Source: Dehalococcoidia bacterium
GTDB lineage: Bacteria; Chloroflexota; Dehalococcoidia; Tepidiformales; Tepidiformaceae
DNA length: 43,641 nucleotides
Reading direction: 5' to 3'
Assembly: GCA_020850615.1 (NCBI GenBank)
Contig: JADZEI010000090.1
Coordinates: forward strand, 1-43,641
Both the position numbers and the translations under genes were made by a program. Every line of letters begins with the position of its first letter. Position 1 is the first letter of the stretch. Below the pieces are notes generated by a model that ran no database searches, was not told the origin of the DNA, and saw only the letters and a program-made list of their open reading frames with translations. Below are positions 2,102 to 41,999 of this stretch, one piece after another.

Positions 2102-3610
2102 TCAGCCGCCCAGCGATACCGCCAGGTTCACCAGCGTCCGCACGGAATAGCCGCTCGCGCCCTTACTTACCCAGCCTTTATCTTTGTCCGCCATGTCCAC
2201 GCCCGCGATGTCGAGGTGGACCCAGGGCGTGTCGCCGGCGAACGGCTCCAGGAACTTCGCCCCCACGATCGTGCCCGCGCCGCGCGTGCCGACGTTCTTC
2301 ATGTCCGCCACGTCGCTCTTCAGGAGCTCGTCGTACTCCTTGAACATCGGCAGCCGCCACGTCTTCTCGCCCGCCGCCGCTGCTGCTGCTTCCACCTTCG
2401 CCGCCAGCCCGTCGTTGTTCGTCAGCACGCCGAAGCAGACATCCCCAAGCGCGATCGAGACCGCCCCGGTGAGGGTCGCGACATCGACGATCGCACGCGC
2501 GCCGAGCTCCTTCGCGTAGCTGATCGCGTCGCAGAGGACGAGCCGGCCCTCCGCGTCGGTGTTGATGATCTCGACCGTCCGGCCGTTCATCGCGGTCACC
2601 ACGTCGCCGGGCTTGGTCGCGCCGCCGCCGGGCATGTTCTCCGTGCACGGCGCGATGGCAACGACGTCCACCTTCGGTTTCAGCGCCGCGATCGCCTGCA
2701 TCGCCGCGATCACCGAGGCGGCGCCCGTCATGTCCGCCTTCATCGCTTCCATGTTCGCCGCCGGCTTGATACTGATCCCGCCCGTGTCGAACGTGATTCC
2801 CTTGCCCACGAGCGCGATGTCGTAGCCTTCGCCGCCCTTGCCCCGGTACGAAAGCCGCACCAGCTTGGGCGGCTGGTGGCTCCCCTTCGCCACCGAAAGC
2901 AGCGACCCCATCCCCTTGCGCTCCATGTCCGCCCGTTCCAGCACTTCGCACTCGACGCCCGAGCGCGCCGCCATCTCCCACGCCTGCTGAGCCAGGTCGC
3001 CCGGCGTCAGGTGGTTCGAAGGTGCGTTCGCCAGGTCCCGCGCGAAGTTCGTCGCCTCGCCGAGCAGCACCCCGCGGGCCACGCCGGCTTCGAGCGACGC
3101 CACCTTCCCGGCGGTGTGCTCCACCAGGACGAGCGTCGCGATCTCGCCGCGGTCGTCGTCCTTCGTGCCCGTGCCCTTGTGCTTCAGGAACCGGTAGCCG
3201 CCGAGGACCGCGCCTTCGGCCACCGCCTGGGCAGCTCCTTGTGGGTCCAGCCCGCCGATGCCGGCGCCGTGGGTCAGCGTGGCCACCGTCTTCACACCCG
3301 GCTTACGCAGGTGCCGCACCACGTTCGCCGAGAGGTTGCGGACGGCGTCGAGGTCGAAGTCCTTCTCCTTGCCCAGCCCCGCCACGAGCACGCGCGGCGC
3401 CCGCAGCTTGCCGAACGTGTGCAGCATCGTCAGTTCGCCCGCCTTGCCGCGGATGTCGCCCATCGCGATCAGGCTCGAAATCGCGCCACCGAGCGACTGG
3501 TCGACGGCGCCCGTCCCGCCACCGGGGCTGGTCACCCCTTCGAAGAGGTTGACGACGAGGACATCCGCCTCGTGCTGTGCCAGGTCCCCGGCTGCGACGC
3601 GTACATCCAC
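2102..3610 (-). CDS. pepA: Leucyl aminopeptidase (M17 family)
   Basis: The 502-residue product matches the usual PepA length. It has an N-terminal macro-like domain and a C-terminal catalytic domain. The two-metal site is visible: GKGITFDTGG (about 272), MKADMTGA, and the signature NTDAEGRL (about 349). The enzyme removes N-terminal residues, preferring Leu, from peptides in the cytoplasm as a hexamer; some relatives also bind DNA, which cannot be judged here. The start is taken as the GTG at 3610 because six G residues lie 8 bases upstream and the longer frame to 3682 adds only non-conserved sequence that overlaps the promoter. It is divergent from the PAP2 gene, with a 16-bp palindrome between them. 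Confidence 0.93.
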   Translation of the reverse strand: MDVRVAAGDLAQHEADVLVVNLFEGVTSPGGGTGAVDQSLGGAISSLIAMGDIRGKAGELTMLHTFGKLRAPRVLVAGLGKEKDFDLDAVRNLSANVVRHLRKPGVKTVATLTHGAGIGGLDPQGAAQAVAEGAVLGGYRFLKHKGTGTKDDDRGEIATLVLVEHTAGKVASLEAGVARGVLLGEATNFARDLANAPSNHLTPGDLAQQAWEMAARSGVECEVLERADMERKGMGSLLSVAKGSHQPPKLVRLSYRGKGGEGYDIALVGKGITFDTGGISIKPAANMEAMKADMTGAASVIAAMQAIAALKPKVDVVAIAPCTENMPGGGATKPGDVVTAMNGRTVEIINTDAEGRLVLCDAISYAKELGARAIVDVATLTGAVSIALGDVCFGVLTNNDGLAAKVEAAAAAAGEKTWRLPMFKEYDELLKSDVADMKNVGTRGAGTIVGAKFLEPFAGDTPWVHLDIAGVDMADKDKGWVSKGASGYSVRTLVNLAVSLGG

Positions 3611-3652
3611 GTGTTGTTCCCCCCGGTAGTCGATGTGATACGGTTTTCGGTG

Positions 3653-3682
3653 AGTGTACCGGCGCCCGCGATCGCGGGCCAA
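3653..3682 (-). promoter_or_regulatory. Probable pepA promoter
   Basis: On the minus strand TTGGCC (3682-3677) and TACACT (3658-3653) are separated by 18 bp. Initiation near 3646 would give a leader of about 36 nt containing the G-rich ribosome site of pepA. Confidence 0.5.
3664..3679. promoter_or_regulatory. 16-bp perfect palindrome in the pepA / PAP2 divergent region
   Basis: GCCCGCGATCGCGGGC is fully self-complementary and overlaps the -35 and spacer of the proposed pepA promoter. It could be an operator. Its core GCGATCGC equals the cyanobacterial HIP1 octamer, but one copy proves nothing. Confidence 0.4.
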
Positions 3683-3711
3683 CGCGCCACCCGGGCACCC
3701 CCAGCTCGACG

Positions 3712-4500
3712 ATGACCGCAGCCAACCGGCCCCTTTCGCAGACCCAGGTGCCCACGGTGCTCGGCCGCGCCTGGCACCTCACCCGCCGCGCCGGCGTCCA
3801 CGAAGCCGTCATCGTCGTCGCCGCGTTCCTCGTCTACTTCTACGTGCGCGGCATGGTCGTCGACCGCGCGGGCCAGGCCATGGTCAACGCCTTCGACCTG
3901 ATCGCCCTCGAACGGCAGCTCGGCATCTATCACGAGCTCGAGATGCAGTCCTGGATCCTGGATAGCTACGCCGCGATCAAGGTGATGAACTGGATCTACT
4001 TCTGGGGGCACATGCCCCTGGTCATCGGCTTCGCCGTCTGGCTCTACGCCTGGCACCGGCCGACCTACACCCTCGTGCGCAACGCCTTCCTCGCCTCTGG
4101 CGCCATCGGCGTCGTGATCTACGCGCTCTACCCGGTCGCGCCGCCCCGCCTCGTCCCCTTCGGCGGCTACGTCGACACCATGGCCATCTTCGACCGCGTG
4201 GGCTACAACGCCCAGGAAGTGAGTGCGTTCGTGAACCCGTTCGCGGCGGTGCCCAGCCTGCACTTCGGCTGGTCGCTGCTCCTCGGCGCCGTCATCGTGA
4301 AGGTCGCGAACCACCACGCCCTCCGCGTCGTCGGCGTCGCCTGGCCCATTGCGATGTTCTTCGCGGTCGTGCTCACCGGGAACCACTTCATCCTCGACGC
4401 GGTGGCGGGCGCGATCGTGTCGTTCGCGGGCCTCGGCATCGCCTACGCCATCCACCGCGCCCGACCCGCTCTCCTCACCCGCCTCGGCCTCGCTCCGTAG
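3712..4500 (+). CDS. PAP2 superfamily membrane phosphatase / Aur1-like
   Basis: The product has 262 residues with about six hydrophobic segments. AAVPSLHFGW (about 179-188) and GNHFILDAVAG (about 221-231) carry the Ser-His and His-Asp motifs of the PAP2 fold, in the arrangement of the inositolphosphotransferase (Aur1/Ipt1-like) branch. Members hydrolyse or transfer phosphate-linked head groups of lipids at the membrane. The substrate cannot be read from sequence. The start MTAANRPL at 3712 was chosen because upstream in-frame codons fall in the divergent promoter region; no clear ribosome site precedes it, so the start is less certain than the gene. Confidence 0.82.
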   Translation: MTAANRPLSQTQVPTVLGRAWHLTRRAGVHEAVIVVAAFLVYFYVRGMVVDRAGQAMVNAFDLIALERQLGIYHELEMQSWILDSYAAIKVMNWIYFWGHMPLVIGFAVWLYAWHRPTYTLVRNAFLASGAIGVVIYALYPVAPPRLVPFGGYVDTMAIFDRVGYNAQEVSAFVNPFAAVPSLHFGWSLLLGAVIVKVANHHALRVVGVAWPIAMFFAVVLTGNHFILDAVAGAIVSFAGLGIAYAIHRARPALLTRLGLAP

Positions 4501-4547: not shown

Positions 4548-4778
4548 ATGGACGCCCCCGTCCCGCCCGCCGAGCAGACCGCGCTCCTCCTCGCCCGCAT
4601 CGAGCTGGCGAAGCAGTGGGACCGCGACGACGAGGCCTACTGGCGCCACGCCACCCTCGAAGAGCGCGCCCGCGCGATCGTCGAGCTCTCGCGCGCGGCC
4701 GATGCGATGCGCGCCGCCCGCGGCACCCCCTGGCCTTTCGAGCCCTTCGCGTTCCCCCGCCTCGGCCAACGTGACTGA
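4548..4778 (+). CDS. Small protein of unknown function (76 aa)
   Basis: The family is not recognised. The product is acidic to neutral, rich in Ala, Arg and Glu, probably helical in its middle (about 10-57), and ends in an aromatic and proline-rich WPFEPFAFPRL. It has no signal peptide or membrane segment. Support for a real gene is the TATACT box 6 bases before the ATG, the same leaderless arrangement as the antitoxin genes near 17.4-20.8 kb. It stands alone between the PAP2 gene and the REP block. By promoter and size it could be a lone antitoxin, but nothing in the sequence confirms this. Confidence 0.6.
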   Translation: MDAPVPPAEQTALLLARIELAKQWDRDDEAYWRHATLEERARAIVELSRAADAMRAARGTPWPFEPFAFPRLGQRD

Positions 4779-4805: not shown

Positions 4806-5080
4806 ATCAGTAGCGCGCGCGTGAGCGAGCGCTCGCGCACCCCCAAGCACTCCCGCCCCGCGCCAGCCCGACACAGCCCCACGTCAGCAGCGCGCACCCC
4901 TAGCACTCCCGCCCCGCGTAGCCCGATACCCGCGCACGCCGAGCAGCGGGCCCTATCAGTAGCGTGCGCGTGAGCGAGCGCCCGTGTGCCCCCAGCGCCC
5001 ACGCCCCGCGCCAGCCGGGCTCAGTACACCCCAGCAGCGCGCCCTCCAGTACCTCCGCCCCGCGTAGCCCGATAGCCGCG
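4806..5080 (+). repeat. Left block of GTAG-headed REP-like hairpin units
   Basis: Two composite units sit here in plus orientation. Unit 1 has GTAG at 4810-4813 followed by an imperfect hairpin to 4838; unit 2 has GTAG at 4959-4962 with a more degenerate hairpin. Each GTAG hairpin is preceded by ATCA and followed by a second module of the type CTCCCGCCCCGCG..GCCCGATA (near 4850, 4905, 5000 and 5050). The stems contain the palindrome GCGAGCGCTCGC in unit 1. The arrangement matches REP sequences mobilised by REP-associated transposases, and such a gene follows directly. This fills the gene-free stretch 4779-5096. Confidence 0.75.
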
Positions 5081-5096
5081 CACCCCCCAACAGCGG

Positions 5097-5594
5097 CTAC
5101 GGACCGAGCTCGTACCGCTCCCCATCCTGCTGGTACAGCACATACCCGATCGCCGCTGCGACCGCGTCGTCGTTCCACAGGTACCGCGTACTCCCGTGGC
5201 GCGACCACAGTCGCTCATCGCTCCCAGCCATCCCCAGCGCCCGCAGTCGGCGTGTCGTCCATGCTTTGAACGTGACCATAATCTGTTCGGGCGATGTCTC
5301 CGCTCCCACAACCGCGTGGATGTGGTTGGTGCGGACATTCAGCGCCAGCAACCCCCAGCCTCTCACGGCGCAGACTTCCTCGATCGCCGCAGCGGCCGCG
5401 TCACGTTCAGCTCCTTGCAGCGAGCGAGGTGCGTTCTTCAGCCGGTTCCGCTCCCACGCATTCCGCGCCGGCGAAGGCGCCACGCAGGGCTCACCGAAGT
5501 CGCGGTTGTCCCGGTCCATCGAACCGCGCGGGTCGCCATGCAGCCAGGAGCCGTAGCAGCGGAAGGTGATGAGGAAGGCGAGAGGGTCGCTCAC
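5097..5594 (-). CDS. REP-associated tyrosine transposase (IS200-like Y1/HUH)
   Basis: The 165-residue product has the Y1 transposase layout: an N-terminal LITFRCYGSWLHGD strand, the HUH motif NHIHAVV (about 90-96), and a C-terminal helix AIGYVLYQQ (about 147-155) bearing the tyrosine expected to attack DNA. Proteins of this type nick and join single-stranded DNA at REP hairpins in the chromosome and rarely move themselves. The start is GTG at 5594. It is flanked on both sides by GTAG-headed hairpin units in opposite orientation (4806-5080 and 5604-5780), the classical neighbourhood of a domesticated REP transposase. No second ORF such as TnpB is next to it. The reading frame is intact with both catalytic motifs, so it is probably active or recently so. 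Confidence 0.85.
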   Translation of the reverse strand: MSDPLAFLITFRCYGSWLHGDPRGSMDRDNRDFGEPCVAPSPARNAWERNRLKNAPRSLQGAERDAAAAAIEEVCAVRGWGLLALNVRTNHIHAVVGAETSPEQIMVTFKAWTTRRLRALGMAGSDERLWSRHGSTRYLWNDDAVAAAIGYVLYQQDGERYELGP

Positions 5595-5603
5595 GCGGCG
5601 CAG

Positions 5604-5780
5604 TCTAGCGGGGCGTGTATCGCGCTGCGCGGAGCATGGGTACTCGGGGCACGCGAGCGCTCGCTCACGCGCGCGCTACTGATAGCCCGGACGATGCGGC
5701 GCGGGCGTGCCTCGCGCTGCGAGGGGCATCGGTACTCGGGGCGCGCGAGCGCTCGCTCACGCGCGCGCTACTGATAGCCC
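5604..5780 (-). repeat. Right block of GTAG-headed REP-like hairpin units
   Basis: Two units in minus orientation mirror the left block. GTAG on the minus strand is at 5679-5676 and 5771-5768, each with a hairpin core identical to that at 4814-4838 for about 24 bases (5651-5675 and 5743-5767). A second hairpin module, for example CCTCGC-GCT-GCGAGG at 5710-5724, lies on the far side of each. Together with the promoter region to 6000 this fills the gap before the nuo operon. Confidence 0.75.
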
Positions 5781-5902: not shown

Positions 5903-5931
5903 TTGCCCCGTCCTTTCCCCGGTGGTAGCGT
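5903..5931 (+). promoter_or_regulatory. nuo operon promoter, sigma70-like
   Basis: TTGCCC at 5903-5908 and TAGCGT at 5926-5931 are spaced by exactly 17 bp. Initiation is expected near 5938, about 62 bases before the leader ORF. The same TTGCC-type -35 with 17-bp spacing is seen at 25385-25413. Confidence 0.6.
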
Positions 5932-5951
5932 TTGTGTGCTCAGTCACAAAC
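5930..5951. promoter_or_regulatory. Rex-like operator overlapping the nuo start site
   Basis: Perfect inverted repeat GTTTGTG-N8-CACAAAC. The inner TTGTG-N8-CACAA has the half-sites and spacing of the NADH-sensing repressor Rex (TTGTGAANNNNTTCACAA), although the inner AA/TT bases are not kept. It abuts the -10 box, an ideal place for repression by a sensor of NADH/NAD+. No rex gene is in this window. Confidence 0.55.
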
Positions 5952-6000: not shown

Positions 6001-6081
6001 ATGAGCCCCGCCCGCTGCGTCCATGCCACGCTCCGGGGCTGCGTGTTTCCTGTTTCCCAACAACGGAGGCCCCGCCCATGA
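6001..6081 (+). CDS. 26-codon leader ORF translationally coupled to nuoA
   Basis: An ATG at 6001, preceded by GGAGGGTGA 7 bases upstream, opens a frame of 26 codons. Its TGA (6079-6081) overlaps the nuoA start codon in an ATGA arrangement. The peptide is basic, contains two cysteines and ends in Arg/Pro-rich residues (QQRRPRP). Its last codons cover the nuoA ribosome site, so ribosomes finishing it could reinitiate at nuoA or expose that site. Whether the peptide itself matters is unknown; the strong ribosome site and exact overlap argue against chance, but a short ORF of this kind can arise randomly. Confidence 0.45.
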
Positions 6082-6443
6082 GCTTCTACGACACCTGGTC
6101 GGCGGTGCTCATTGCCACCATCGCGGGCTTCACGCTCGTCTTCACCGCGCTCGTGGCAACGAAGCTGCTCGCACCCTACGCCCGCGAACGCGCCAAGGGC
6201 GTGTCCTACGAGTGCGGCATGCTCCCTATCGGCCGCAACTGGTCCCAGATCCACGTCCGCTACTACCTCCTCGCCATCCTCTTCCTCATCTTCGATGTCG
6301 AGACCGTCTTCATCTTCCCGTGGGCCGTCACCCTCGGCGCCGACGTCCCGCTGTTCGTCTTCTACGAAATGCTCGTCTTCATCGGCGTGCTCGTGCTTGG
6401 CCTCGGCTATGCATGGAAGCGCGGCGTACTGGAGTGGAAATGA
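6078..6443 (+). CDS. nuoA: NADH-quinone oxidoreductase subunit A
   Basis: The 121-residue product has three membrane helices and the conserved loop YECGMLPIG followed by [14 protein letters not shown], the hallmark of NuoA/ND3. The subunit sits in the membrane arm beside the quinone channel; in other complexes its loop, including this Cys, moves during the active/deactive transition. CGGAGG lies 8 bases before the ATG. It is the first gene of the operon, coupled to an upstream leader ORF, and its stop overlaps the nuoB start (ATGA). Size and motifs are ordinary. Confidence 0.96.
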
Positions 6444-30022: not shown

Positions 30023-30059
30023 GCCAGGGCCATCGGCACATCCGAGCCGCGACCGTACA

Positions 30060-30103
30060 TCCGAGCCGCGACCGTGAGGGAGCGGAGGCGCACCCCCCGC
30101 ACC
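30060..30103 (+). repeat. Direct repeat copy 1 with GA-bulged GTGA hairpin
   Basis: Contains CCGC-GA-CC-GTGA-GG-GA-GCGG (30066-30085), a 20-nt hairpin with tandem G-A mismatches and a GNRA-type loop. A truncated extra copy of the first half lies just before it (30041-30055). Confidence 0.8.
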
Positions 30104-30140
30104 CCCGGCACGCGGAGCCGGTACGACGGCACCCCCAGGT

Positions 30141-30183
30141 GTAGCCGGGGCCCCTCGTGGGCCCGAGCGTCTAAGCCCAACGG
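30141..30183 (+). repeat. GTAG-headed hairpin with GCGTCTAAGCCC tail
   Basis: GTAG at 30141-30144, then a GC-rich GGGCCC / GGGCCC stem (about 30148-30164), then GAGCGTCTAAGCCCAACG. The same tail follows a different stem at 41670-41716. Confidence 0.7.
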
Positions 30184-30220
30184 ATGCCCCACCGATAGGT
30201 ACCGCCCCGAGCAGCGGAAA

Positions 30221-30264
30221 TCCGAGCCGCGACCGTGAGGGAGCGGAGGCGCACCCCCCGCACC
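30221..30264 (+). repeat. Direct repeat copy 2 with GA-bulged GTGA hairpin
   Basis: Identical over 44 bp to 30060-30103; the hairpin is at 30227-30246. These copies sit in a 653-bp gene-free stretch (30023-30675) that otherwise holds GTAG hairpins. Confidence 0.8.
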
Positions 30265-30399
30265 ACCGCCTCGCGCCAGCGCGCGACACGCACCGCCCCG
30301 GGGCACGCCCCCGCGCCACGAGCCGGCCGCTCGCTCCGCTCCTGCCCTCGCAGCGAACGGGCTTGGCACGCGCTGCCGCGAGACATCCCGCGGACAGTC

Positions 30400-41669: not shown

Positions 41670-41716
41670 GTAGTCCGCCGAGCCCAGTCTCGGCGGAGCG
41701 TCTAAGCCCAACGCCT
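41670..41716 (+). repeat. GTAG-headed hairpin with GCGTCTAAGCCC tail
   Basis: GTAG at 41670-41673, stem TCCGCCGAG / CTCGGCGGA, then GCGTCTAAGCCCAACGC. The tail equals that at 30165-30182 although the stem differs. Confidence 0.78.
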
Positions 41717-41846: not shown

Positions 41847-41999
41847 CGGTATCGCTCCACCCAGCGCATCCTGTCCTGTCCCCCGCGCGAAAGACGAGAC
41901 GGGGTGAGAGCCAGGCCAATCAGTAGCCCGACCATCAGGGAGGGCAGGTCCGCCCCTCCCGCTCCCGCCCCCGCGGCAGCCCCACCCCGCCCCGCGCGC

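Follow-up and report, generated by a model that had tools for sequence, protein, structure and literature searches.

Several described systems resemble the locus analyzed here. The closest is TnpAY1 class 3 (Quentin et al., 2018; PMC6006769), which, in the portion of that paper drawn on here, has the motifs NHVH and YV[VI][AENY]EQ, is reported from Planctomycetes, Acidobacteria and Proteobacteria, and is associated with repeats having the foot CnGA. As far as that portion goes, our locus shares with class 3 the NH[VI]H motif, a conserved W and the Y----Q motif, a core of ~155 aa conserved at the N-terminus, and gene-side hairpins with many further copies across the genome. Planctomycetota and Acidobacteriota are phyla of both the homologues found here and published class 3. 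In contrast, the host here is one of the Chloroflexota, two of its repeat families have the foot CAGT, and the feet of the homologues follow CNG[AT]. In the repeats described here the stem covaries, a G is opposed to an A and the loop is GNNA; we found no description of these features in the same portion of PMC6006769. Class 3 is rare and barely studied, and its proposed place as a link between IS200 and (domesticated) RAYTs rests on a couple of dozen proteins.

RAYTs, or TnpAREP proteins of class 2 (Nunvar, 2010, PMC2817692; PMC8266576, on TnpAREP biochemistry), are likewise flanked by inverted units, with one repeat family per gene and with repeats that are intergenic and multicopy. They differ in having Y...NP and an invariant GT[AG]G outside the stem, where the present system has YxxxxQ and a CNG[AT] foot. 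The IS200/IS605 transposases (e.g., of IS608 and ISDra2) share the HUH fold and a Q rather than N downstream of the tyrosine. They act on a strand-specific, single-stranded substrate and their insertions are biased to one replication strand, features for which we suggest a counterpart below. However, IS200/IS605 elements are autonomous insertion sequences with subterminal hairpins in one orientation, whereas the present gene is not found in repeated whole copies and its Q occupies Y+5. TIRYTs (Di Nocera, 2013, PMC3733652) are also Y1 genes flanked by inverted repeats other than GTAG REPs. Most are class 2.1 according to the portion of Quentin et al. (PMC6006769) drawn on here, and have C-terminal HTH domains, none of which was found in the protein studied here.

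The locus is very probably a class 3 REPtron, that is, one stable gene for an IS200-like HUH/Tyr nuclease that is flanked by, and would act on, its own units (family A).

The locus and its gene

The window (the whole stretch of DNA analyzed, 43,641 nucleotides) is one contig of a draft genome of 4.17 Mb in 95 contigs (C90 in our numbering). The host belongs to the Chloroflexota, as an earlier sequence-only reading had proposed. We identified an intact ORF of 165 codons at 5097-5594 on the minus strand, which begins with GTG at 5594 and stops at 5097. It is located in the interval from a PAP2-family gene (3577-4500) to nuoA (6078-6443), with which the nuo operon begins. The encoded 165-aa protein matches Pfam Y1_Tnp (E 5e-6, above the Pfam cut-off). 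Its catalytic residues are H90xH92, in the HUH motif NHIH, and Y150. H90, H92, Q155 and the catalytic tyrosine itself are invariant in an alignment of 19 relatives.

Four family A units, two per side, converge on the gene, which is the layout that the sequence-only reading had described. Those in the 3' flank are on the plus strand, at 4806-4843 (25-nt core hairpin 4808-4832) and 4955-4994 (core 4957-4981, one mismatch). Those in the 5' flank are on the minus strand, at 5646-5683 (core 5657-5681) and 5738-5775 (core 5749-5773). The inverted arms are 95-97% complementary. The four units had been thought to share an identical core of about 24 bp; this holds for three of them, and the fourth (4957) is off by one base. 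Two weak matches on the plus strand, at 4880-4900 (CAGCAGCGCGCACCCC) and 5027-5047, form the direct-repeat family D6 and are probably degenerate or truncated family A units. A small ORF of 76 aa without a Pfam match (4548-4778, plus strand) is located between the PAP2 gene and the repeat island.

Classification of the protein

Judged by its motifs, the window protein is not a canonical class 2 RAYT but matches the description of TnpAY1 class 3 in Quentin et al. (2018). Its Y motif reads YVLYQQ, with Q at Y+5, rather than the class 2 form Y---NP, and the protein has both an NHVH-type HUH motif and the Y----Q of class 3. It scores 19.5 bits against the REP_Tyr_transpos profile (NCBIfam NF047646), for which the cut-off is 80. 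The five class 2 paralogues that share its genome, all with Y...NP, reach 65-80 bits, just under the cut-off themselves. The view of the locus as a textbook GTAG REP transposase, taken in the sequence-only reading, is thus given up. The score against the IS200 profile (NCBIfam NF033573) is 26.1 bits, also below the cut-off (55).

An AlphaFold model of the window protein (pLDDT 87) gives Z 14-15 against the TnpAs of IS608, ISDra2 and IS200 and Z 10.4 against E. coli TnpAREP (4er8), so the predicted fold scores nearer to IS200 transposases than to TnpAREP. A single-protein sequence search of solved structures gave no match, and a profile search reached IS200 TnpAs at E ~0.001. In a tree of 95 class 3 and five class 2 proteins, a very long branch splits the classes with full support (100/100), and the two class 3 paralogues of this genome join (100/92) beside a protein of a related genome (G001). 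Homologues of the window protein are mainly from Planctomycetota and Acidobacteriota.

Family A repeats

The family A core (CAGTAGCGCGCGCGTGAGCGAGCG) occurs in 75 copies genome-wide (≤3 mismatches). A reversed-pattern control found 0, which excludes chance as the source of the family. This count, of the kind that the sequence-only reading had proposed, shows that the units are not confined to the locus. Alignment of 77 units indicates that conservation is sharp from the AT at -2 to about +36. Each unit comprises the foot CAGTA, the stem GCGC/GCGC, a G opposite an A, an inner stem of 2-3 bp, and the loop GTNA. The G opposite A is present in 68 of 71 distinct copies. A compensated change of the stem, from GCGC/GCGC to GCCC/GGGC, is seen in seven distinct copies, concentrated in a few arrays. 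By a crude codon measure, 76 of the 77 units score as non-coding. Apart from scattered near-matches, family A is restricted to its own genome, as is expected if each gene maintains its own repeat family.

Among adjacent family A units up to 700 bp apart, 32 pairs share an orientation and 0 are opposite; the pair that spans the gene (701 bp apart) is in opposite orientation. The sequence-only reading had proposed a count of orientation pairs; the inversion across the gene is borne out and inverted doublets are absent. Published REPs often form such doublets (REPINs or BIMEs), whereas family A forms direct arrays only.

Energy folding of a single copy favors a different, longer hairpin that is no stabler than those of shuffled sequences. 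This alternative pairs in 81% of cells, without compensatory changes, and one of its pairs is A.C in 29 of 71 copies. A second hairpin in the tail of the unit (CCGCGCCAGCGCGC, ~+45 to +55) is not claimed; shuffled sequences match it in 31 of 77 cases.

A hairpin common to class 3, and the meaning of GTAG

A scan of 84,980 species genomes identified 80 class 3 loci, mostly in Planctomycetota and Acidobacteriota, with a few in Chloroflexota and other groups. A strict motif search around ~100 class 3 loci in several phyla found 216 units, compared with 1.6 in shuffled sequence. Near class 3 genes, units favor the converging order (69 upstream on the plus strand and 51 downstream on the minus strand, vs. 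24 upstream minus and 19 downstream plus). In the consensus, the foot CNG[AT][AG] is followed by a stem of 4 bp that covaries, then by a G and an A opposed to each other, and the loop is GNNA. When proximal units were selected blind to the outer stem, 124 of 165 distinct units made four of four pairs, and with the partners slid by 1-3 bases only 0-3.6% did so. These units include 18 stem types (e.g., CCGC/GCGG, GCCC/GGGC, ACAC/GTGT and CCAC/GTGG). Independent evidence for covariation comes from this set of 165, selected without reference to the outer stem; the alignment and covariance model (A3 and R1) were built from units with intact stems, and their 100% pairing is not independent evidence.

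The foot is CAGA, CCGA or CGGA in class 3 homologues and CAGT in families A and D. The published form CnGA is found in most homologues and in a further family of this window (family E), and CNG[AT] describes the class as a whole. The first stem base of family A, a G, is C, A or T in relatives, in most of which the partner is changed to match. Because this G varies and covaries with its partner in related class 3 units, we conclude from the sequence comparison that GTAG is probably not a conserved head but a by-product of the foot CAGT, an A and the first stem base G. Families A and D do contain the letters of GT[AG]G; their last G pairs and covaries, and homologues occur without it. The sequence-only reading had treated GTAG as the recognized head of the unit, which probably does not apply to family A; true GTAG repeats lie beside the five class 2 RAYTs.

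Units of other families are present elsewhere in the window, all on the plus strand. The covariance model identified two family E units of class 3 type, at 30061-30085 (foot CCGA) and 30222-30246 (both 37.9 bits), and a further class 3 type unit at 41921-41945 (33.1 bits). No cognate gene for the family E units was seen in the window. A canonical GTAG REP of class 2 type (family B, one mismatch) is located at 41670-41696. At 30040-30330 and at 41921-41945, class 3 type units (family E, foot CCGA) lie near a class 2 type GTAG repeat. A truncated class 3 type unit is fused immediately ahead of a full one at ~30041.

Other Y1 genes and their repeats

The genome has a second class 3 gene (C66:121663-122145), the sole such relative of the window gene there, whose product is 56% identical to the window protein. 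It is flanked by family D (CAGTGGCGCGACCAATAGGGAGCGC), which has 38 copies. Adjacent family D pairs are in the same orientation in eight cases and opposite in one, which spans the gene. We also identified five class 2 RAYT-like genes (C66:93158, C17:4106, C6:48184, C95:4536 and C66:61303), each flanked by a different GTAG-headed hairpin family. The genome therefore has seven or more Y1 genes, whose repeat families differ. Family B (GTAGTCCGCCGAGCCCAGCCTCGGCGG), which brackets the gene at C66:93158, is a true GTAG repeat with 102 copies. In many places family B repeats lie directly 5' of family A units, with ~35 bp spacing, forming class 2/class 3 mosaics (e.g., C9:49565-49623, C73:8801-8975 and C77:830-888).

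The covariance model detects at least 148 class 3 type units in this genome, a lower bound as 150 candidates were scored. In the GTDB family, all 13 genomes with a class 3 gene have at least eight units (8 to at least 148 model matches). Among the 25 genomes lacking the gene, 21 have no unit and one (G037) reaches eight or more. The co-occurrence of gene and units over these 38 genomes is strong by Fisher's test, with relatedness ignored (p 2.6e-9). G037 has ten class 3 type units and no class 3 gene that we could find, possibly a case of gene loss with the repeats left behind.

Orientation of the repeats on the chromosome

Units are preferentially located on whichever strand is richer in C at the scale of tens of kb (30 of 35 clusters for family A, 32 of 38 for family B and 14 of 16 for family C). 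For family D the bias is not significant (5/8). When the skew was computed from gene bodies alone, with the two gene strands balanced, units are on the C-rich strand at 52 of 59 places separated by more than 3 kb (p 1.4e-9). Sorted by how many of the two flanking genes are on the C-rich strand, the ratios are 10:1 (none), 32:2 (one) and 30:7 (two). Gene direction was considered as the cause of the bias and rejected, because the 10:1 ratio persists with neither flanking gene on that strand. The bias recurs in an independent genome of another genus (G009), in which 16 of 17 class 3 type units are on the C-rich strand (p 2.7e-4).

The C-rich strand is the coding strand of the ribosomal-protein operon locus, the nuo operon and 190 of 316 called genes. 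This hints that the C-rich strand is leading and that the strand carrying the units is the lagging-strand template, as for IS608. In a relative assembled as a single contig (G021), skew splits the chromosome into two arms, with switches at ~0-60 and ~1,300 kb. The dnaA gene of that genome (C1:919123, 919 kb) is inside one arm, far from both switches, and so does not mark the origin in this family. A search of our own genome for rpoB domains, toward locating the origin, gave no match.

We consider it an evenly balanced proposition that the orientation of class 2 and class 3 units, which belong to two unrelated RAYT classes and nearly all face one way with respect to the GC-skew arms, carries the footprint of strand-specific, replication-coupled insertion into single strands, whatever the direction of neighboring genes, with head-to-tail pile-up. 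A possible precedent, by analogy, is the finding that tandem REP arrays are oppositely oriented on the two sides of the SBW25 chromosome (Bertels & Rainey, 2011; PMC3116915).

Alternative explanations

If the gene were a canonical class 2 RAYT with GTAG-headed REPs, the letters that head family A (GTAG) and family D (GTGG) and the RAYT-like layout would be explained, and genuine class 2 RAYT/GTAG pairs do occur in the same genome. We regard this as improbable, given that the Y motif and profile scores are unlike those of the five class 2 paralogues, that the tree separates the classes by a very long branch at 100/100, and that the G ending GTAG covaries as part of a stem pair, the feet of homologues being CAGA, CCGA and CGGA. 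The lean of fold and profile toward IS200 TnpA (26 vs. 19.5 bits; Z 15 vs. 10) would instead suit an ordinary insertion sequence of IS200/IS605 type, or its remnant, with the repeats as its ends. However, only two class 3 genes, 56% identical, face 75 and 38 repeat copies, and the units converge at both flanks, where IS200 ends are on the same strand. The Q is at Y+5 and not Y+4, and the score falls short of the 55-bit cut-off of the IS200 profile. This is the least probable of the alternatives.

The repeats could also be host elements (transcription terminators, nucleoid or polymerase sites) kept for their function, with the gene merely located among them. The units are intergenic, their hairpins are GC-rich, and the gene on the 5' side is co-oriented in 57 of 82 cases, all of which would be compatible with such a role. 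Yet every class 3 gene has its own family of units converging on it from both sides, genomes without the gene are almost free of units, and the strand bias is independent of the direction of flanking genes (10:1). A host function of this kind is thus very improbable as an explanation.

Proposed mechanism and significance

For the class 3 REPtron, we computed the gene, units, covariation, genome copies, gene-unit co-occurrence, direct arrays and strand bias, and from these we infer binding, cleavage, mobility and fork coupling by reference to the IS200/TnpAREP pathway (PMC8266576, and the portion of PMC6006769 drawn on here). When the chromosomal strand becomes single-stranded, a unit would fold into a hairpin (foot CNG[AT][AG], 4-bp stem, opposed G.A, 2-3 bp stem and GNNA loop). 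The enzyme would recognize foot plus hairpin, the foot serving as a guide while recognition would rely on the opposed G.A and the loop, a role that we liken to that of the mismatch bulge in E. coli REP. The HUH motif and a metal would position the scissile bond in the folded unit, Y150 would attack, and the strand would be rejoined. Units may be excised and inserted in this strand-specific way, often beside an existing copy and in the same orientation. If new units always entered the same exposed strand next to a copy already there, both the direct arrays and the strand bias would result.

Class 3 very probably extends to the Chloroflexota, a phylum not named for class 3 in the literature cited (PMC6006769 in the portion drawn on), and the conserved covarying hairpin provides an exact test substrate. 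Because one genome holds two class 3 and five class 2 systems, each paired with a separate repeat family, specificity could be tested cleanly within it. The most interesting part of the analysis of this locus is the orientation bias of the repeats. It bears on the question of how REPs are propagated, since it predicts that units insert into single-stranded DNA at replication forks.

The site in relatives

No class 3 gene adjoins nuo among the gene-bearing relatives in which both were located. In ten relatives, the region upstream of nuoA has no class 3 gene; the flanking genes differ and there is no precise empty site. A stretch upstream of nuoA (~5920-5950, GGTGGTAGCGTTTGTGTG...GTCACAA) is kept in relatives and is probably the nuo promoter region; the repeat island stops ~150 bp short of it. 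In another genome (G007:C35, ~1826-1847), a copy of a class 3 gene is truncated exactly where a unit lies on the opposite strand.
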